Shown here: positions 7,485 through 30,919 of the stretch, piece after piece
How positions within the stretch are numbered: the first letter of the stretch is position 1
Layout of the letters: every line of letters starts with the position of its first letter
Virus record (IMG/VR): IMGVR_UViG_3300010354_000214
Span: 1 to 39,199 of that record
DNA length: 39,199 nucleotides
From: a virus
Reading direction: 5' to 3' (one strand)
The notes under the pieces: generated by a model
The model's database searches: none
What the model saw: only the letters and a program-made list of their open reading frames with translations
What the model was told of the DNA's origin: nothing
Translations under genes and position numbers: made by a program

Positions 7485-8011
7485 TTAAATCGACAATCGG
7501 CTGCTCCGACACGGTTGCGGAGTGGCTTGCGTCTCTGGATAAATCCCAGAAGGACGCGTTTGTTCACTATGCGAAAAATTCGGCTAGTGATATTGAAGCT
7601 TATTTGTACGCTAGGTTTCTATCCCCAGGCTATGGCGGTAGTATAAGCGATCTAACTGCTTGGGTGCAGGAGAAATACCCTAAAGAAGATTTACGTAAAA
7701 TCTTATTAATAGAGATTGACAGTCTCCAAACAGACATTAAGAATGTTAGAGACATGACGTTGACGGGGATGTTAGATCATGCTACAGCAGCTACTAAGAT
7801 CTCCGCTCTTCAGAAAGAACTCCGTTCCCACATCCAGTCTGTTCGGGCTATTACTGACGGTTTGGATCGACGCGGTTTACTACTTGCCGGCGCCGACCGT
7901 TGTCTGCGGGAACTTATGCAGACATTGGATGGACAGCCGACCATCCAGGCTTTATTGGACGACGCCTCAATCCTGGTGTGGTCGACTCTGGAACGTGAAG
8001 AAAAGAGTTAA
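7481..8011 (+). CDS. Hypothetical helical protein, possible small terminase subunit
   Basis: 176 residues, starting with an ATGA overlap. The protein is almost entirely helical: an N-terminal segment (VAEWLASLDKSQKDAFVHYA), a possible HTH region (GGSISDLTAWVQEKYPKEDL), then a long coiled coil (IEIDSLQTDIKNVRDMTL; ATKISALQKELRSHIQSVR). A DNA-binding start followed by a coiled-coil oligomerisation part is the plan of small terminases. In plus-strand order it is the gene just before the large terminase, separated only by the minus-strand glycan pair. No direct homology is recognised, so the terminase idea is an inference. The gene ends inside a bidirectional hairpin. Confidence 0.45.
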   Translation: MIKSTIGCSDTVAEWLASLDKSQKDAFVHYAKNSASDIEAYLYARFLSPGYGGSISDLTAWVQEKYPKEDLRKILLIEIDSLQTDIKNVRDMTLTGMLDHATAATKISALQKELRSHIQSVRAITDGLDRRGLLLAGADRCLRELMQTLDGQPTIQALLDDASILVWSTLEREEKS

Positions 8012-8023
8012 TTGACTCTTTTT
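8001..8023. terminator. Bidirectional AT-rich terminator shared by convergent genes
   Basis: AAAAGAGT (8001-8008) and ACTCTTTT (8015-8022) form a perfect 8-bp stem with the loop TAATTG. Each strand carries a U-run on leaving the stem. The TTAA at 8008-8011 contains the stop codons of both convergent genes. The stem is AT-rich, so it would be only moderately strong. Confidence 0.6.
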
Positions 8024-9087
8024 AAGCGTCGCATGATGTTTTCTAAGGGGGTCCTAAAGATTCCCATGAAAGCATCGTTTACCCCCAGCGACATAACCAA
8101 ATCGGTGCCCTCAACATACGCGCCGAACGGCAAGATTACAGCAGGTTGAGTGGAAAGTGGATTCCCTGCGTAATCCGTCCACTGGATTAACTTGTCGTTT
8201 AACGACCCCGTAAACAGCGGGTTTTCATCGACATAGAGGATCTCCTTGAAATCCTTACTCGCGATGTAGCTACCTAGGTGATAAATCAAATAGTTCTGAC
8301 CCGAATCGCTGCGGGTCATGTGCTTCCAGTGATAAAACACCAGATGGCCGTAACCCAGATCAATAGGGGCAGTGGAGTTAAAGGTTGGGCACCCTTTACT
8401 GACCTGTTTAAGAGGCTCCGAGTCAGTCTCAATTCGAGGCAGTGATTCGCTCTCAATAACAAGAGGAACCGTGGAGTAAAGACAACTCAGCTGGTCCTTG
8501 TACGGGAAGAAGCACCAGTTTTTCTCTGGCTTCTCTTTATTTCTGTTTTCTCCAATTGGTGGGATTGCGGCGCTAACAGCCTCGCCGTTTTCATCCACGT
8601 AGCAAACGATAACTTTGGGGTTATCGAACAGATTTTTACCGCCTCGGTTATACCGACTCGCGTATGTGGAGGCGACAAACTGCACATATAGTTCGTCGTC
8701 CGGACCCACGAACAAGCGTGGATCCTCATAACTCAGTCGATGCGGTTTAGACCTTAACTTCTTTGTTCCGAGAATCGTTTCGTCATCAGCCAGCTGGCCG
8801 ATGTAAATATCGGTGTTCCCGTTATTTAAGTAAAAGTAGTTGCGATCGTATCTAAAGCCAAAGGGCTCCGGTTGCGATCTCCACGCGATGAAGGTTTTAT
8901 CCTTGTGTTGGATAATGCTGGGACTGAAGTTAGCTACAGCGTTATCCGGTAGCCCTTTGGTAATTCGAGTGAAGGTGCCGCCAAGGTTTTCGGCTTGACG
9001 GTAAACACTGGGAACTCCTTCTTCCTCCTGTTTAAGAGGAAACAGGCAATCACTGTAAGCGTGATAAAAACGGTGAGTTGTTTGCAT
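8008..9087 (-). CDS. Beta-propeller glycosidase-like protein (GH130/GH43-like)
   Basis: 359 residues when started at the ATG at 9087 (MQTTHRFYHAY), two bases after the stop of the upstream glycosyltransferase gene; the frame extends further upstream but would overlap that gene. The segments VANFSPSIIQHKDKTFIAWR, NTDIYIGQL and LSYEDPRLFVGPDDELY repeat the strand pattern of five-bladed beta-propellers of GH130-type mannoside phosphorylases and related glycosidases, where the EDPR region lies in the active site. It may cut or modify a glycan, or serve as a sugar-binding propeller. Substrate and activity cannot be told. It forms a two-gene minus-strand unit with the GT4 enzyme. Confidence 0.6.
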   Translation of the reverse strand: MQTTHRFYHAYSDCLFPLKQEEEGVPSVYRQAENLGGTFTRITKGLPDNAVANFSPSIIQHKDKTFIAWRSQPEPFGFRYDRNYFYLNNGNTDIYIGQLADDETILGTKKLRSKPHRLSYEDPRLFVGPDDELYVQFVASTYASRYNRGGKNLFDNPKVIVCYVDENGEAVSAAIPPIGENRNKEKPEKNWCFFPYKDQLSCLYSTVPLVIESESLPRIETDSEPLKQVSKGCPTFNSTAPIDLGYGHLVFYHWKHMTRSDSGQNYLIYHLGSYIASKDFKEILYVDENPLFTGSLNDKLIQWTDYAGNPLSTQPAVILPFGAYVEGTDLVMSLGVNDAFMGIFRTPLENIMRRLKRVN

Positions 9088-9089
9088 GA

Positions 9090-10262
9090 TCAAGCCAGGA
9101 GATCTTCGACAGCTTTGGAGAAACCTAGAGCGATATGTTCCCAGCGGTACTCTTTTCGTTGTGTTACCGCGTAGCACGAGTCGGCCACTTCTTTATAAGT
9201 GCTTTGGTCGTAATACAACTCGTTTAGCAGAGACACCATGTGATCGATACTGACCAACCCTCTTTCCACGCCGAGGTCTTTATCGGTCACCCACGAGGAG
9301 ATGTCGGCAAGCATCCCAGCTTCATCCCAGATGTCAGCGCAGACAGTGTGGTTGGGGACAATCTGTGGTTTTCGGCAACTCGCATGTTCGAAACTAACCA
9401 ACCCCCAACCTTCACCATCCGCTGTATTAATACCTACGTCGCAGGCGTTATAGATACGGTTAAGTACTTCGTCAGACGGAGCAGCAATATAGTTGATATT
9501 ATGCGAGGTCATGACCAAGCGTTTGTGGTCATCGAGACCCTGCGCTGACATCTCCTTCTTAAACAGCGGAATAACATCCCAACCCAGATCTTTTGCACTC
9601 ATGTGCAAATACAACATGGTGTCGGGTTTATCGACCGCGAATTTGGAGAAAGCTTTAATCGTTAGATCAATGCGCTTGCGGGGCTGGTTTCTATTGGCGT
9701 TTAATACGATGAATTTATCTTTAGGGAGTCCTAATTGATCTCGGGCTTCATCCCTGGGCATGGGTTTGAACCGGCCTGTGTCCACGCCATGTGGCAGAAC
9801 ACCTAGTCGCTTGGCTGGAACTTTCTGCTGGATGATGCGTTGAGCGCTATTGATGGTAAATGTGATGGCCATATCCCAGTAAGGGATATTGCGTAACATA
9901 TCCGGCAAATAAGACTGACTATCTACCGGGAAGTAAACAATGAATTTAAATTTGTATTTTTCTTGAAGGAACTGAGCTTGTTCCCAAACCTGATTGGCGA
10001 CCCAAATATCGTTTAGGCAGATATAAATATCTGGTCTTACCTTGTCGATAATCTCAGGGATACGCGGCAGACCGAATCGATCCGGGCAGTTGACGTTTGC
10101 CGCTGGGTAAATCTTGTACGGATAATCGTGTGGGTCGCCGCTGTAATTGATGCCTAATACGTGTACTTCATGGTCTTTACTCAGGTGCTCTAGTACACTA
10201 TGTGTTACTCGACCAAATCCTGTATTACTACAAGCATCACCGTGCCAAAGAATCCTGGCCAT
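9090..10262 (-). CDS. Glycosyltransferase family 4 (GT-B fold)
   Basis: 390 residues. The N-terminal domain starts with the acceptor-binding HGDACSNTGFGRVTHSVL (glycine-rich loop), the linker has LGVLPHGVDTGRFKP, the donor domain begins IVLNANRNQPRKRIDLTI, and the GT4 E-x7-E motif is complete in GEGWGLVSFEHASC (Glu284 and Glu292). It transfers a sugar from a nucleotide sugar with retention of configuration, in the cytoplasm. The start ATG faces the terminase gene across 53 bases. Phage GT4 enzymes modify phage DNA, phage proteins or host surface sugars; which applies is unknown. Partner of the propeller gene downstream. Confidence 0.88.
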   Translation of the reverse strand: MARILWHGDACSNTGFGRVTHSVLEHLSKDHEVHVLGINYSGDPHDYPYKIYPAANVNCPDRFGLPRIPEIIDKVRPDIYICLNDIWVANQVWEQAQFLQEKYKFKFIVYFPVDSQSYLPDMLRNIPYWDMAITFTINSAQRIIQQKVPAKRLGVLPHGVDTGRFKPMPRDEARDQLGLPKDKFIVLNANRNQPRKRIDLTIKAFSKFAVDKPDTMLYLHMSAKDLGWDVIPLFKKEMSAQGLDDHKRLVMTSHNINYIAAPSDEVLNRIYNACDVGINTADGEGWGLVSFEHASCRKPQIVPNHTVCADIWDEAGMLADISSWVTDKDLGVERGLVSIDHMVSLLNELYYDQSTYKEVADSCYAVTQRKEYRWEHIALGFSKAVEDLLA

Positions 10263-21900: not shown

Positions 21901-22533
21901 GTGTCGACCATACTGACCTCTCAGCTCGAACAGATCGAACGGTATCTGGTTGAGCAAGGGGTCATTTTTAATACGCAAATAACTGATGCCACTAAGCGTG
22001 AGGTTGTTTACGCAGCGGTAAATCAGTTAACGCGTAACGGGTTTGAAGTCGATAGTTATGCTCTCTGTCAGTACGACTTTGATCGCGCTTGTTATCACTT
22101 AAATTACAACATAGCTTCCGTCAGTCCTGCTGATTACGCTCGACTTTTGGAGGCTTGTAACAATATCCCCAGCGAGTTTTATTACACCAAAATTGTCGAG
22201 CAGATTCAGCGGTGTGAAGTTGCTGAACCTTTGTGTGAGCTAGCTAATGGTCGTGCCACAAACCGGCAAGAAACCATCCTAGGTGAAGGCACGGAAGTAC
22301 TAAATCGCTCTATTACAATCCAAGACAAACGAGTTGTTGCTCGTATCTGGCGGGAAAATTATCTGTATGAGTGTGATCGTTTATCTAATATTCTCCATGT
22401 CGTTAACTATAAAGATCCTTTAATTGCGTCCTCTCGTTTTATCGAAACTGAAGGAGATTTTATTCAGGGTTATCCTGGTCCCCCTAACCCTGCGTTAGCA
22501 GATGATCTGTATTTTTCGACAGCGTGGCGCTGA
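21901..22533 (+). CDS. Tandem paralogue A, probable neck/connector virion protein
   Basis: 210 residues from GTG 21901. It shares most of its length with the next protein: QLEQIERYLVEQGVIF, TKREVVYAAVNQL, YHLNYNIASV, IPSEFY, GRATNRQETILG and ARIWRENYLYECDRL all have close counterparts. The end (PGPPNPALADDLYFSTAWR) is also shared in form. No external family is recognised. The position between the capsid genes and ejection-type proteins suggests a neck, connector or tail component present as two related rings or one mixed ring. Confidence 0.6.
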   Translation: MSTILTSQLEQIERYLVEQGVIFNTQITDATKREVVYAAVNQLTRNGFEVDSYALCQYDFDRACYHLNYNIASVSPADYARLLEACNNIPSEFYYTKIVEQIQRCEVAEPLCELANGRATNRQETILGEGTEVLNRSITIQDKRVVARIWRENYLYECDRLSNILHVVNYKDPLIASSRFIETEGDFIQGYPGPPNPALADDLYFSTAWR

Positions 22534-22562: not shown

Positions 22563-23183
22563 GTGGCGGATTTAACGACACAGGAGTTAGAGCAAATCCA
22601 GAGCTATTTAGCTCAGCAGGGTATTGTATTTCAACCGGATACGGTTGATACAACAAAGCGTGAAATTGTATATGCAGCTATAAATCAGTTAGCCAGAAAC
22701 CCCGCTCAGGTTTTTGGTTATAGACTTGATGATTTTAATTTTAGTCGTGTAGCTTATCACCTTGGGTATAATATAGCCACAGTTCCTGCGGGGGATTATT
22801 CGCGGTTGATGCAGGCTTGCAACAGCATCCCCAGCGAAATCTACGTGGATAAAATCGTTCAACAGATCGAACGTTGTGAGGAAGCGGAACGTTTAACTGA
22901 ACTGGCTACTGGTCGAGCCACCAGCCGTCAAGAGACAATTTTAGGTGACGTTAGCCGTTCTATTAATATTCAAGATAAGAAGGAAACAGCAAGAATATGG
23001 AGAGAAAACTATGTGTTTGAGACAGATCGCTTAGCGCAGATGTTATATGTAGCAAATTATCGTAATCCAGTAACTAATCGATACAGATTTGAGCGAAGCG
23101 GAGCTTCATTCGTGCAGGCTATTCCTGGCCCACCGACAGCATCACGTGCTGATCGAATGTATTTTTACACTAACTGGCGCTAG
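22563..23183 (+). CDS. Tandem paralogue B, probable neck/connector virion protein
   Basis: 206 residues from GTG 22563. Matching blocks with the previous protein are ELEQIQSYLAQQGIVF, TKREIVYAAINQL, YHLGYNIATV, IPSEIY, GRATSRQETILG and ARIWRENYVFETDRL, and both end in NWR/AWR. The region between GRAT...ILG and INIQDK is shorter here, and the end differs in detail. Codon use is more AT-rich than in paralogue A, which argues that the duplication is old. Function unknown, virion role inferred from position. Confidence 0.6.
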   Translation: MADLTTQELEQIQSYLAQQGIVFQPDTVDTTKREIVYAAINQLARNPAQVFGYRLDDFNFSRVAYHLGYNIATVPAGDYSRLMQACNSIPSEIYVDKIVQQIERCEEAERLTELATGRATSRQETILGDVSRSINIQDKKETARIWRENYVFETDRLAQMLYVANYRNPVTNRYRFERSGASFVQAIPGPPTASRADRMYFYTNWR

Positions 23184-25825: not shown

Positions 25826-27364
25826 GTGGCCCGACGCAAGGGGTCGGATAACTTCGGTTTCAGGTCTTTAAAGGCTAATCAAGGTTTTGAGCAGCCGTCT
25901 AATGTACCTGGCGCCGATAATCCTTCCCAGTTAATAAATCCTCTACCTTTTAAACGTCGTTTTCGTCCTGCTACGGGAACTAAGGATTTCAGCATCCTTA
26001 GTGATTATGACTATGCATCTCTGTGGAGCCGCTGGCGGCGGGGTTATGAGCTGGCGATGTACTCGCAGCAGGCATATGACGGTTTAACTTATAGCTTCAA
26101 ATATTATTTACTAGGCACTCCCGGAATAGGCATATTTCTGCCTGGGATTGCTTTTATGTATCCCACCACTCGCGCGGATATGCGCATGTGGATGGTTGGA
26201 ATTAGACCTCGGGATTCTTTTAACTTTTTGAATTTCGGTTATGCAATTTCAGCTGTTTCTGACTATGACGCCGACACTTATGCGGTTCGATTAAATAGCA
26301 ACTTCGGCGCTCCTATTTCGTTCTTTACCGGGGAAATTTTATCAAACCGATTTACAGCAGCTGGTACAGATAAACAATATGGTTTTAATAATTACACGGT
26401 CAAAGGCGTAGGGATAAACGGTGTGCCTGCATCTAACCCCGGATACGCTCCCATATACAACACTTTATTTTTATCACATACAAAAGAAAACAGTTGGGCG
26501 GTTGTTAACGCTAATACTCTTGCAGTCCCTGCATCAGGTCCACCCGCTGTGGGTGAGTACCTGACAACTGAGATGCGCTCTCAGTGTACGTGCCCAGATT
26601 TCTTAGGTAGAGAAGGGTTTAATCTTTATGATCTTTCTCTCCGTCGTAAGTACCCTTACACCCGAGTCCAGAATTTTGATCCTGGGTTTTATGACGGGGG
26701 TCCTGATTTGGGTGCTGACCGCATTCAACAGTCAAGTGACAGTCCTGGTTGGGCGCGGGGCTTTGGTTTTATCTATTTAAACCAGATCTACAACCTTCCT
26801 CAATATACAGAAGCTGTTTATTCCGACCCTAATGTTTACTATTATCAACCGCGTTGGTGTAAACACATCTACGCAGCTATGTGGGATCTGAAGTATAGAT
26901 TCGGTCAGAACGCTGTTAGTTCACCTTGGCTTCCGCAGCCAAATGATGAACCAATGAACGAATATTATCGGGAGAAGTTTGAGATAGATCTGAATAAACA
27001 AGTTGATTTTTATAGGCGAGAACGGGATCTCCGGTGGTGGGAACGTTATAGCCCGAGTAAAAACGATATGCCTACTCACATGATGTACCCGGATATGTAC
27101 AACATGATGAGTAAAACTTTAAATAGTGGAGGTGTAAACTCGAACGTACCTCTTGAAGCTAATAGCTTCGAGATGTTTACTGTTGATGAATTTGATCCTT
27201 TTGCACCTGTTAATTTACAGAACTTACAAGTTTATGATGGCGGTCAGTACGCTAACGGTGTTCTAATTAGTCAACCCGTTAACACCCTTAACGGTGGCCA
27301 GTATACTAATGGTCAGTTAATCCCTGCGCCTAGTTTTCCGATTAACGGCGGCGTTTACACATGA
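25826..27364 (+). CDS. Virion protein with SWIM-like zinc site and C-terminal GGxYxNG repeats
   Basis: 512 residues from GTG 25826. MRSQCTCPDFLGREGFNLY supplies Cys254-x-Cys256 and PRWCKHIYAAMWDLKY supplies Cys345-x-His347, the CxC...CxH ligands of a SWIM zinc finger, here with about 88 residues between the pairs. I recall similar QCTCxDFLGR and PRWCKHIYAA segments in cyanophage structural proteins. The N-terminal half is Tyr/Gly-rich and beta-like. The end carries three related pieces, DGGQYANGVLI, NGGQYTNGQLI and INGGVYT. It overlaps the next gene by 4 bases (ATGA). A tail or neck structural role is likely. Confidence 0.65.
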   Translation: MARRKGSDNFGFRSLKANQGFEQPSNVPGADNPSQLINPLPFKRRFRPATGTKDFSILSDYDYASLWSRWRRGYELAMYSQQAYDGLTYSFKYYLLGTPGIGIFLPGIAFMYPTTRADMRMWMVGIRPRDSFNFLNFGYAISAVSDYDADTYAVRLNSNFGAPISFFTGEILSNRFTAAGTDKQYGFNNYTVKGVGINGVPASNPGYAPIYNTLFLSHTKENSWAVVNANTLAVPASGPPAVGEYLTTEMRSQCTCPDFLGREGFNLYDLSLRRKYPYTRVQNFDPGFYDGGPDLGADRIQQSSDSPGWARGFGFIYLNQIYNLPQYTEAVYSDPNVYYYQPRWCKHIYAAMWDLKYRFGQNAVSSPWLPQPNDEPMNEYYREKFEIDLNKQVDFYRRERDLRWWERYSPSKNDMPTHMMYPDMYNMMSKTLNSGGVNSNVPLEANSFEMFTVDEFDPFAPVNLQNLQVYDGGQYANGVLISQPVNTLNGGQYTNGQLIPAPSFPINGGVYT

Positions 27365-28002
27365 CATCAACACCAGTTGTTTTACTTCTTAAGCGCTCGG
27401 GTCAGTCGTCCGATAGACCTAGCGGAACGGTCGTTCAGAATGGTGAGCTGGCATTATCTTTCGGCGCAGTTGATCCTGGTCTCTACTTCGAGGATTCCGC
27501 AGGTTCCATACGAAAAATTGGTCCTAACCATTACGCAGCTACGGCACCTAACTCCTCTCCCGTTGGTTTAGCTGGTAATTCTGTCGGTGAAACTTGGGTA
27601 GATAGTTCGACCTCTAACTACTACTTCAAAGTCTGGAATGGGACCACGTGGCTGAAAGTAGGGGCTGGTTTTGCCGATACCGCGACATCGGCTAGCTCTG
27701 CCAACACAGCTAACTCGGCTGGATCTGCCGTAATGGCTTCCGGAGCAATTCTTGCCTCAGGCACGATATTGGCCTCTGGTGCTCTCTCCGCGTCCGGCAG
27801 TATTCAAGCCTCGGGTGCGATCATGGCCTCGGGCGCAATTCTATCTTCTGGGGCACTGAACGCCAACGTTGCATCCGGTATTCCGGCTGCCTCGGTCGCA
27901 ACTACGCTTCCCGTTTCTGCCCCCGTGGGGACGCTGTTTTATCAAACCAACGCCCCCAGCGGACTGTTTATCTATACCTCAGCTGGCTGGGCTCTTACTT
28001 AA
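27361..28002 (+). CDS. Tail fibre-type protein with hexapeptide repeats
   Basis: 213 residues, start in an ATGA overlap. The N-terminal block (VVQNGELALSFG, LYFEDSAGSIRKIG) resembles the start domain of cyanophage fibres. GETWVDSSTSNYYFKVWNG then TTWLKV is a module also seen in the protein at 35818. Residues about 120-165 form a six-residue repeat of the type ASGAIL (ASGAILASGTILASGALS and further copies), which could make a beta-helix or fibrous shaft. The end (GLFIYTSAGWALT) is a short tip. The last 24 bases overlap the convergent dps-like gene. Confidence 0.7.
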   Translation: MTSTPVVLLLKRSGQSSDRPSGTVVQNGELALSFGAVDPGLYFEDSAGSIRKIGPNHYAATAPNSSPVGLAGNSVGETWVDSSTSNYYFKVWNGTTWLKVGAGFADTATSASSANTANSAGSAVMASGAILASGTILASGALSASGSIQASGAIMASGAILSSGALNANVASGIPAASVATTLPVSAPVGTLFYQTNAPSGLFIYTSAGWALT

Positions 28003-28560
28003 CGGAGTTTCCGAACCGTTGCGAAGGGTGGCTTTTAAGAACCACGCGCCTTTAAACATCATGCCGACAAGCTCGGCTGCGTAATTTTCTACGTCGGGTG
28101 CGCCCACTTCCTTTGCCATGCAGCCAACATCTTTCGCCATCATGCCGCAGGCTTCCAGGTTCTTAGTGTAGACCGTAAGCATCTCTCTAGTGTCATATGA
28201 TTTTACATGTTTAAATCCTTTATATGCCGAAGCTAGTCCTCGGTCACACATTGGCATCAGATAGTCCATCGTGCGAACAAACTCAGCGATCGCATCGAAC
28301 TGCTCGATGTGTGCTGCGTACTGTTCCTTTAGAAACTCGTGAACGGGTATAAAAAGAGGACCTTCGAGGTTTAAGTGAATCAGGTGCGATTGGGTGTACA
28401 ACTGATTCAGATACGAAGAAAGCGACACCAGCTGCGAGATTAACTCGTCAACTGATGCCGCTGGCTTTACGTCTACTTCGCCGATGATCATTTGCTGGAC
28501 CGGCATGTCCCCCTGTGGGGCCATCGGATTACCAGATTCAAATGCGGCGGAGTAAGTCAT
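27979..28560 (-). CDS. dps: Dps-like ferritin (DNA-protecting iron-storage family)
   Basis: 193 residues. The Dps core is clear: LYTQSHLIHLNLEGPLF then IPVHEFLKEQYAAHIEQFDA and IAEFVRTMDY. His62, His74, Asp89 and Glu93 fall at the spacing of the ferroxidase ligands of E. coli Dps (H51, H63, D78, E82), but the position of Asp67 is Lys78. The N-terminal tail of about 35 residues lacks a lysine-rich DNA-binding stretch; the C-terminus (CGMMAKDVGCMAKEVG) is Met/Cys-rich. Dps shells oxidise and store iron and protect DNA from peroxide. The gene starts one base after an excisionase-like gene and is antisense to its neighbours, suggesting acquisition. Confidence 0.8.
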   Translation of the reverse strand: MTYSAAFESGNPMAPQGDMPVQQMIIGEVDVKPAASVDELISQLVSLSSYLNQLYTQSHLIHLNLEGPLFIPVHEFLKEQYAAHIEQFDAIAEFVRTMDYLMPMCDRGLASAYKGFKHVKSYDTREMLTVYTKNLEACGMMAKDVGCMAKEVGAPDVENYAAELVGMMFKGAWFLKATLRNGSETPLSKSPAS

Positions 28561-28561
28561 A

Positions 28562-28831
28562 TCAGAAAGAGCAAGCTGCAGCGGTAGCGGGAGCTTCTGC
28601 AGTTTCTACTTTAGCGCCAGTTGTGCCTTGCAGGTACTCTTCTAAGGCCGACTTGTTCACACGGTACAACGATTTTGCACCGTTAGGCTGCAGATTCACG
28701 TACACGCTTTTAGGCCAACCACCGGGCTGGTTAGCTTCAGCGAGTGCAATCCGCTTCCGAACAAACCCACTGCTGCAGTTAAGCAGTTCAGCTGTTTCTG
28801 CGATTGTAAGGAGAGTTTTACCGTCCGACAT
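28562..28831 (-). CDS. Excisionase/MerR-type helix-turn-helix protein
   Basis: 89 residues. LLTIAETAELLNCSSGFVRK and RIALAEAN form a winged HTH of the excisionase/MerR kind, and GAKSLYRVNKSALEEYLQG is the characteristic wing and helix that follows. The tail is Ala/Thr-rich and disordered. It probably binds DNA and may control its own promoter and the dps-like gene directly behind it, one base away. There is no integrase in the window, so a regulator is a better guess than a true excisionase. Confidence 0.7.
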   Translation of the reverse strand: MSDGKTLLTIAETAELLNCSSGFVRKRIALAEANQPGGWPKSVYVNLQPNGAKSLYRVNKSALEEYLQGTTGAKVETAEAPATAAACSF

Positions 28832-28912
28832 TTAGTGCTCTTGTAGAGAAGCAACGATGCCATGGTAACCCTATTTGTCCTAGTCGCAACGCAGTATTCG
28901 AAGCCTAATATC

Positions 28913-28935
28913 TTCTTAAGGTTTCAGTTGGTATG
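28913..28935 (+). promoter_or_regulatory. Repeated promoter-like element, copy 1
   Basis: TTCTTAAGGTTT (28913-28924) followed by GTTGGTATG (28927-28935) lies just before the ATG at 28951. The same 12-mer, followed by GTTAGCATG, occurs at 35213-35236, also upstream of the first plus-strand gene after a minus-strand block. Probably a phage promoter or activator site. Confidence 0.5.
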
Positions 28936-28950
28936 ATTAAGACGAGTTGA

Positions 28951-29208
28951 ATGAGTCTCGTGTCAATTCGTATTGCAGGAGAAATTTTTAAAAATTACAA
29001 TGTGCCAAAGCGTGATGTTCAGGGCGGTAAGGAATTTTCTGTAGCGGCTAAGGAAGGCGATGAGGTTCGTCTGGTTCGTTTTGGGGATCCAAATATGGAA
29101 AATCGGAGTGACGATCCTGCGCGCCGAGCTGCTTTCCGCTCACGTCACAGTTGTGATGAAAAGAAAAGCAAGCTGACTCCGGGCTTCTGGAGCTGTCGAG
29201 CCTGGTAA
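28951..29208 (+). CDS. Small conserved phage protein (FGDPNM...WSCRAW family)
   Basis: 85 residues. LVRFGDPNMENRSDDPARR, AAFRSRHSCDEKK and TPGFWSCRAW make up a pattern I know from a widespread family of small phage proteins, often beside head or maturation genes; its function is not established. The Cys and Trp near the end may form a metal or packing site. It starts with ATG 28951 after a promoter-like repeat and is the first plus-strand gene after the Dps/excisionase island. A long leader (29209-29290) follows. Confidence 0.7.
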   Translation: MSLVSIRIAGEIFKNYNVPKRDVQGGKEFSVAAKEGDEVRLVRFGDPNMENRSDDPARRAAFRSRHSCDEKKSKLTPGFWSCRAW

Positions 29209-29255: not shown

Positions 29256-29293
29256 GGAGGGGCTAAGCTGTAATTAGCCGCTCTATAGTCGTG
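29256..29293 (+). promoter_or_regulatory. Ribosome-binding site separated from its GTG start by a hairpin
   Basis: GGAGG (29256-29260) is 30 bases from GTG 29291, too far to work linearly. Between them GGCTAA (29261-29266) and TTAGCC (29274-29279) form a 6-bp stem with a 7-base loop. Folding would leave about 11 bases between GGAGG and the GTG, a normal distance. No other site precedes the GTG, and an in-frame TAA at 29264 excludes an upstream start. Confidence 0.6.
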
Positions 29294-29548
29294 GGCCGCC
29301 GTAAAGACCAGGATTTGTCGGACATCAACTGCGGTCTGACCCTTGAGGACGAGTTTGTCCTGACCCGAATCCGAACTAAGGCTCATTCGCTAGATGACCC
29401 TAAGGAACGCGATCAGTATCTCTGGGCTACGGTTTTTAAATTAATTTGCCGTGAGCGAGCTTATAAAACAGTTATGCACGAATGCGGGATCGCTGTGGAA
29501 ACCAATATGAATCTATTTGATCCTGAGGAAGCTTCCGAAGATAACTGA
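29291..29548 (+). CDS. NblA-like small protein (phycobilisome degradation candidate)
   Basis: 85 residues from GTG 29291. CGLTLEDEFVLTRIRTKAHS then DQYLWATVFKLICRERAYKT and VMHECGI follows the NblA pattern L-[ST]-L-E-x-E-F-x-L followed by two helices ending near a short Leu/Met end. NblA proteins mark phycobilisomes for proteolysis, and several cyanophages carry copies. Here the protein is longer than the usual 55-65 residues, has an acidic tail, and lacks the consensus QMM stretch, so it could be a different small helical family. If correct, the host carries phycobilisomes. Expression may depend on the hairpin at 29256-29293. Confidence 0.45.
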   Translation: MGRRKDQDLSDINCGLTLEDEFVLTRIRTKAHSLDDPKERDQYLWATVFKLICRERAYKTVMHECGIAVETNMNLFDPEEASEDN

Positions 29549-29584: not shown

Positions 29585-30919
29585 ATGGCCCCTCTTGATT
29601 ATCGGGAAATTGCCCGGCAAAAGGCGGCTAAATACGGTTTAATACCGGAAGTTTTTGAGCGGCAAATAGCGGCGGAGTCTGGGTTTAATCCTGCAGCAGT
29701 CTCGTCAGCGGGTGCGACGGGCATCGCTCAGATTATGCCCTCTACAGCAAAGGGTTGGGGCGTAAATCCACGGGATCCCGTTGCTTCTTTGGATGCTGCC
29801 GCTAAGAACATGGCAGCTTACATTAAAACGTATGGTGGGGCTGGGACTTCTGATCCCGTAAAAGTTCGTACCGCCTATGAAAAGGCCCTACAGGCTTACA
29901 ATGCGGGTCCCGGTAGTGTCGGTAAGTATTTTCCTGCTGAAACTAAAAACTATATAAGTAAGATTATTGGTCCCGATAAATTCAGTTTTACGGATGCCCT
30001 TGCTTCTGGACAAGGTGTTTTAAATGCTGCTGCCGATGGTGGTACGACTCCTCCTCCCGAACCTATAGCTCTACCGAGGAAAGATTTTAATCAGATTTTT
30101 ACACAAGTTGCTTCTGATTTTCTTGCCCGCAACTTATTGAATCCTGCGTCCTCTACAACTTCTACAGATGCTCAAGCTTATTTAGCAGCTGCCGATAAGT
30201 TGGATGAGAGCACGAGTATCGAAGATCAAGCTTTAGCCGAAGAATATAGGAATCAAGCTATTCAGGCACAGACTATAAAAGACTTCAGCGGCGGTCTGGA
30301 TCCAATGCAGCTTATAAGTAAGTACATAGAAACAAAACAAAATGTATCAGAATACAATAAACAACAAGAGATACTTGAGAAGTACGCTAATACCGTTCGG
30401 GGTGCCTCCGAACTTCCAGACACCGTGGAGGATACGGTTCTGCCTACAGCAGGTAAAGGTCTCGCGTATAAAGGAGCTGTTTTAACTTCGGCTAAGGACA
30501 CAACAGGTGAGCCTGGTTTTGACTTTGTAATTCCGGGCGGTAGAGGAGCTGCTTTCCGCGCACCGTTCAACGCACAGGTAGTCAAAGTCGTTGGTAATCA
30601 GAATTGGGAAACCAATCTTGAGAAAGGTCCTGGCAAGCGTGGGTACGGTAACTATGTAGATTTACGGGTTAAGACTCCCGATGGGAAAGCCTTTGACGTG
30701 CGTTTAGCCCATTTCGATAAGGTTAATCCCCAACTTAAACCGGGTGCTGTTATTGGACCTGGAACTTTAATTGGTACTCAGGGTCGCACAGGATCTACAA
30801 CCGGAGCTCACGTATCCTGGGACATGTATGATCCCGGTAAGAACACAACAAGTCCAGAAGTTCTGCGGTATCGAGATATTTTTGCCGATAGAATACGCAA
30901 AGGACAACCTTTATTCTGA
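29585..30919 (+). CDS. Virion-associated lytic transglycosylase with degenerate M23 domain
   Basis: 444 residues. The N-terminal soluble lytic transglycosylase domain has the catalytic Glu31 in RQIAAESGFNPAAVSSAGA, then TGIAQIMPSTAKGWG and AYNAGPGSVGKYFP. A helical linker follows (about 145-290). Residues about 311-425 resemble a LytM/M23 fold (FDFVIPGGRGAAFRAPFNA, VRLAHFDKV, GRTGSTTGAHVSWDMYD). Asp313, His376 and His409 are kept, but the first zinc histidine is replaced near Glu309 and the last is Ser411, so the peptidase is doubtful. The enzyme would open peptidoglycan for DNA entry. It ends in TGATG with the next gene. Confidence 0.8.
   Translation: MAPLDYREIARQKAAKYGLIPEVFERQIAAESGFNPAAVSSAGATGIAQIMPSTAKGWGVNPRDPVASLDAAAKNMAAYIKTYGGAGTSDPVKVRTAYEKALQAYNAGPGSVGKYFPAETKNYISKIIGPDKFSFTDALASGQGVLNAAADGGTTPPPEPIALPRKDFNQIFTQVASDFLARNLLNPASSTTSTDAQAYLAAADKLDESTSIEDQALAEEYRNQAIQAQTIKDFSGGLDPMQLISKYIETKQNVSEYNKQQEILEKYANTVRGASELPDTVEDTVLPTAGKGLAYKGAVLTSAKDTTGEPGFDFVIPGGRGAAFRAPFNAQVVKVVGNQNWETNLEKGPGKRGYGNYVDLRVKTPDGKAFDVRLAHFDKVNPQLKPGAVIGPGTLIGTQGRTGSTTGAHVSWDMYDPGKNTTSPEVLRYRDIFADRIRKGQPLF

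Follow-up and report, generated by a model that had tools for sequence, protein, structure and literature searches.

Dps proteins encoded by phages are already known, and a role in protection against oxidative stress has been proposed for those of gut and Lactobacillus phages (PMC8008677, PMC6669764). Such proteins occur in Lactobacillus phages (e.g., Semele), Bacteroides 'Gratiaviridae', Streptomyces phage Braelyn and Proteus phage Privateer, the four that were tested falling into PHROG 3636. So far, phage Dps have been read as oxidative-stress helpers by annotation alone. Four representatives of PHROG 3636 and one unannotated Enterococcus record have all five ferroxidase ligands with Asp or Glu at position 67 (E. 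coli numbering), unlike the protein described here. In canonical centres the acid at position 67 serves site B via a water molecule, and crystals often show this site unoccupied (PMC6675082). Nostoc Dps4 (NpDps4) has Asn at this position and still oxidises Fe2+ with O2 (PMC6675082).

The stretch analysed here (the window, 39,199 nucleotides of the viral record IMGVR_UViG_3300010354_000214 of IMG/VR) carries a dps gene whose closest described counterpart is that of phage S-EIV1 (KJ410740), annotated as ferritin-like (AHV82153). Both proteins belong to the same viral clade, with 53% identity over residues 37-182, and position 78 is non-acidic in both, i.e., Gly in S-EIV1 and Lys in the window. 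The S-EIV1 gene differs by a Lys-bearing N-terminal linker, by another gene neighbourhood and by the lack of an adjoining HTH partner; a second lineage, which includes S-EIV1, carries the same Dps in this different setting. As far as our tools show, three points are new: the lineage-wide lack of the site-B acid, the core status of the gene together with its HTH partner, and a branch in which the ferroxidase site is dead. The features of the locus are the following.

27361 to 28002, plus strand: tail-type gene, repeat-rich, convergent with dps (phrog_356, minor tail protein, 1.5e-16)
27979 to 28560, minus strand: dps, Dps-like miniferritin of 193 aa; H62, H74, D89 and E93 kept, Lys78 at the position of Asp67
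28562 to 28831, minus strand: hth, DNA-binding protein of 89 aa, excisionase/HTH_17 type, directly upstream of dps
28832 to 28950, minus strand: divergent intergenic region upstream of hth, putative promoter region of the cassette
28951 to 29208, plus strand: small conserved gene next to the cassette (PHROG 7595)
29291 to 29548, plus strand: NblA-like gene (sub-threshold match), two genes from the dps cassette
29585 to 30919, plus strand: lytic transglycosylase and M23 peptidase of virion type, conserved flank

The product of dps had been called a Dps-like ferritin in the sequence-only reading, and the searches bear this out. It matches Pfam Ferritin over residues 43-181 (E 7.9e-11, above the cut-off) and belongs to PHROG 3636, i.e., phage Dps (E 4e-24), a profile also matched by Privateer, Braelyn, Bacteroides and Grimontviridae phages. 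Its best sequence matches in the PDB are Dps and neutrophil-activating proteins (NAP). The AlphaFold2 model, computed for the monomer from 37 sequences (mean pLDDT 69.6; about 70-93 in the helices, low in the termini and the BC loop), has the four predicted Dps helices (37-64, 70-97, 124-152 and 155-184) plus a short BC region. The matches listed by Foldseek against the PDB are Dps-family structures, at about 17-24% identity. VIA-align gives Z values of 18-19.6 for Dps and likewise for bacterioferritins; thus the structure gives the superfamily, and the sequence gives Dps. Profile, model and structure search agree on a ferritin-like four-helix bundle with a short BC helix. According to the model, the protein folds as a Dps subunit; it probably assembles as a Dps dodecamer, the model itself being a monomer.

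Canonical Dps (E. coli Dps, P. aeruginosa PA0962 [8ff9] and H. pylori NAP) share with the window protein the fold, the ligand spacing and four of the five ligands. They differ from it by Asp or Glu at position 67, where the window protein has Lys, and by the residues that follow H62 and E93 (HL for HW and EF for ER, respectively); E66, H84 and C105 are moreover conserved in the viral family. The spacing H62-H74-K78-D89-E93 is identical to that of H51-H63-D67-D78-E82 in E. coli Dps, as had been noted earlier from the window alone. Homologues align from H74 to E93 with no gap, and since the ligand-to-ligand stretch is gapless a shifted alignment is ruled out. With four of the five ligands present, the window protein is, to judge from its residues, a Dps-fold variant rather than a canonical Dps.

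It cannot be assigned to the His-type Dps of cyanobacteria either. These proteins (NpDps4, TeDpsA and TlDps1) share the cyanobacterial setting, and Asn67 of NpDps4 is also non-acidic (PMC6675082, PMC7327923). The His-type ferroxidase as defined in PMC6675082 has His78 in place of Asp78 and a His164 in helix D, whereas the phage protein keeps the Asp (Asp89) and has a helix-D His only sporadically. In the alignment of the viral family, no helix-D His is consistently placed to substitute for the site-B acid.

Position 78 is never acidic in the 134 distinct viral cores: it is Lys in 102, Gly in 26, Gln in 2, Arg in 2, Asn in 1 and Thr in 1, with neither Asp nor Glu, so Lys78 as a private mutation or a sequencing error is ruled out. 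The sequence-only reading had asked how Lys78 fares in homologues; the absence of the acid proves to be lineage-wide, but Lys is not strictly required and Gly is a common alternative. In the first 82 sequences, column 78 is Lys at 89%, with synonymous exchange between AAA (62) and AAG (11); the other codons found there are those of Gly, Gln and Asn and never GAR or GAY. A single transition leads from AAR to GAR, yet the acid codon is absent. On the tree, Lys and other residues have been exchanged at least 7 times at this position. Position 78 is apparently selected to be non-acidic, and mostly to be Lys.

The remaining ligands behave differently. H62, H74 and D89 are kept in 132 of the 134 cores and E93 in all 134, while Q57, E66, Y81 and C105 are invariant in the viral family and H59 and H84 nearly so. 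The viral homologues diverge to about 50% identity, and zero-entropy ligand columns would scarcely be expected at such a divergence unless metal is bound. By analogy with the known centres, Lys78 probably weakens or abolishes site B and leaves site A able to bind iron. It had been suggested that the substitution could alter or remove iron oxidation. The second alternative is weakened: it does not follow from the loss of Asp67 alone, given the iron oxidation by NpDps4 despite its Asn67 and the variation of this position in cellular cyanobacterial Dps; total loss of activity is not implied by Lys78. Nevertheless, the activity of the window protein may differ from that of an ordinary iron oxidase.

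Cellular Dps of cyanobacteria mostly have Glu at position 67; Gln, Gly, Met and Asp occur there as well, and Lys in one case, in a sample biased by the query. Lys at the same ligand position is seen in a cellular Dps of a Leptolyngbya MAG (L187), whose subfamily also has Gln, Gly and Asp there.

Five contigs of one branch go much further. In L441-L443, L445 (the same contigs as L482-L485) and L491, which encode two distinct proteins, the two exceptions among the 134 cores, H59, H62, H74 and D89 are lost, and K78 and E93 are kept. The ORF is intact (177 codons) and its neighbours are unchanged. Of the changes that separate the two, about 22.5 are synonymous and 6.5 non-synonymous (dN/dS 0.067). 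Three ligand-loss contigs of 42-80 kb were searched for a second ferritin, and none turned up. This points to purifying selection on dps without a ferroxidase site, as a pointer rather than a proof, the case consisting of one branch and one independent pair. With the ferroxidase ligands lost and the gene still selected, ferroxidase activity would not be what retains dps in that branch. An extension of this idea, to be taken as tentative, is that the virus-only Dps clade as a whole, core in a widespread cyanophage lineage, gave up the two-iron ferroxidase and uses the cage in a non-ferroxidase role, e.g., as a virion component or as a one-metal sink.

The lineage is in this respect a natural test, with one iron ligand systematically missing, relatives with almost none, and the same gene context. 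The comparison of K78, G78 and ligand-free forms would tell whether iron chemistry or something else is the reason for which phages retain Dps; it would also add to the knowledge of site B, which is variable in cyanobacterial Dps.

Between the window and its nearest relative (L002, a close variant with 95% identity over 12.6 kb), dps shows 15 synonymous changes and 0 non-synonymous ones. The dN/dS ratio in other viral dps pairs is 0.04-0.06, to be read with the caveat that dS is saturated in several pairs. It must be mentioned that positions 26250-28000 of the window, with the tail-type genes next to dps, are only 75-84% identical to L002, which corresponds to local tail divergence or to recombination.

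Prevalence was searched through the neighbouring gene of 512 aa, in order not to select for Dps, and 59 contigs were found. The 49 that reach the dps position all contain dps, 48 of them with hth also; the other ten end before this position. The dps gene thus counts among the core genes of the window's lineage, a sporadic moron or passenger being ruled out by its presence in 49/49 contigs. No cellular relative was found by signature patterns in 84,980 species, a search of limited sensitivity, and no close cyanobacterial homologue in 292 cyanobacterial genomes (best match 55 bits). In a tree with 41 other Dps, the viral Dps lie on one side of a branch with an SH-aLRT of 99, a value to be read with a long-branch warning and with the few columns in mind. 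The absent signature matches, the 55-bit best match and the viral branch together disfavour a recent capture from a cyanobacterium.

As regards the host, the gene at 29291-29548 reaches 13.7 bits against Pfam NblA (PF04485), under the cut-off of 25. Among its relatives, 12 of 21 match Pfam NblA at E up to 1 (best 1.2e-3), and its only sequence matches in the PDB are NblA (E 0.1 and 0.28). The structure search with its model gave no NblA match. The assignment to NblA is thereby a weak one, drawn from sequence. Of 15 related phage genomes, 14 contain an NblA-like match, four of them above the Pfam cut-off, vs. one above the cut-off in 14 control genomes, among which Synechococcus elongatus is the only cyanobacterium. 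The nearest isolate, S-EIV1, infects freshwater Synechococcus. From these matches and the S-EIV1 host, phycobilisome-bearing cyanobacteria are likely to be the hosts, which agrees with the photosynthetic cell supposed at the outset. Neither psbA nor transaldolase was found in the related genomes. Many of these genomes hold another NblA-like gene elsewhere (four above the Pfam cut-off).

The gene hth matches HTH_17 (4.4e-6, 27.3 bits for a cut-off of 27) and falls just under the cut-off of TIGR01764 (4.6e-6, 26.9 vs. 28.8 bits). Its TGA stop lies 1 nt from the ATG of dps (TGATATG), and the arrangement suggests that both genes are probably co-transcribed and translationally coupled. The pair is conserved in relatives, both genes being on the minus strand between plus-strand genes, so the description of dps as antisense to its neighbours and paired with a DNA-binding regulator holds. 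In the window's lineage, the order tail-type gene, dps-hth, small genes and transglycosylase-peptidase is conserved. The 3' overlap of dps with the convergent tail gene is 24 nt in the window, and 4 nt at the stop codons in most relatives. In the divergent region 28832-28950 there is no match to the sigma-70 consensus, and the count of the promoter scan is not above chance; in relatives, a weakly conserved element gCTAa..T precedes hth by a few tens of nt. The same scan gave 6 terminator-like signals vs. 2.7 expected. The window contains no tRNA.

The window protein has a pI of 5.07, and its N-terminal tail has a net charge of −3 with one Lys/Arg, the lineage mean being −4.2; this is not the mobile tail rich in Lys and Arg of E. 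coli-type DNA-binding Dps. Binding of DNA in the E. coli manner, as suggested by the sequence-only reading, is thus not favoured by the composition of the tail and the pI.

Taken together, we give about even chances to the reading in which dps encodes a virus-specific Dps miniferritin, core in a cyanophage lineage, with site A and His74 kept and Lys78 in site B, and serving in the handling of iron and peroxide. The antisense cassette would make the protein, probably under the regulation of the small excisionase-type HTH partner. Site A would be formed by H62 and, from the partner subunit, D89 and E93; site B keeps His74 but has Lys78 instead of its acid. Each centre would then firmly bind one Fe(II) (or Zn) rather than two, the ammonium group of Lys occupying the place of the second metal. 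Uptake of Fe(II) would blunt Fenton chemistry in the infected photosynthetic cell, and DNA coating of the E. coli type would not be expected with the acidic tail. In the sub-branch whose iron site is nearly gone, the cage would need a use independent of ferroxidase.

This leaves two roles, either a sink for iron and peroxide inside the cell or a protein associated with the virion. The latter, somewhat unlikely in our view, supposes that the cage or the subunit travels with the tail or in the head and is delivered with the DNA, its function being structural or protective and iron chemistry secondary. Dps of Proteus phage Privateer has been found in purified virions by mass spectrometry (PMC7881722), and several 'prohead protease' proteins of BFVD contain a region that matches the dps model. 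In the window's lineage dps sits between the tail-type gene and the virion-type transglycosylase, and in the S-EIV1-like lineage beside large structural-looking genes; the retention of the ferroxidase-dead branch under selection would fit as well. On the other hand, the window's cassette runs opposite to the late genes and brings along a regulator, which one would not expect of a virion gene co-transcribed with them; the metal ligands are moreover invariant except in one branch. Because the site-A ligands are invariant outside this branch, the sink is ranked above the virion role.

The canonical role, in which Dps would oxidise iron and protect phage or host DNA by binding or compacting it, is improbable for this lineage. 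The Dps fold, the four ligands, the Lys-rich N-terminal linker of the S-EIV1-like lineage (mean net charge +1.7, about 4 Lys/Arg) and the five complete ligands of other phage Dps speak for it; the acidic tail (mean −4.2, pI 5.1) and the missing site-B acid of the window lineage speak against it. The Dps ferroxidase centre is built across subunits, and any mixed centre would be affected by a subunit that carries K78. Phage subunits might thus enter host cages and alter or poison their inter-subunit ferroxidase centres, with which the ligand loss of one branch is still compatible. The low similarity to cyanobacterial Dps (at best 55 bits) makes mixed interfaces unlikely, however, and the site-A ligands are otherwise conserved, so that such a modifier of host Dps is very improbable. 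That dps is a host-derived relic, in decay ever since it was captured and with Lys78 marking an early stage, is hardly credible for the lineage: the ligand losses of one branch and a frameshifted dps in one contig (L525) would agree with decay, and dN/dS of 0.04-0.07, presence in 49/49 contigs and the lack of a close cellular donor in the searches disfavour it.

Both the virion role and the ferroxidase-dead branch had been missed in the earlier reading. The BFVD entries A0A6J7WPK9, A0A6J7WIS1 and A0A6J7XDU5 (uncultured phage, 'prohead protease') contain one Dps-like region, which suggests Dps-protease fusions or polyproteins. In the structural region of the window, 21901-22533 and 22563-23183 are adjacent paralogues of PHROG 29158. 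A glycosyltransferase-type gene (phrog_2170) and an adjacent ORF lie on the minus strand at 8008-10262, antisense to the neighbouring terminase gene.
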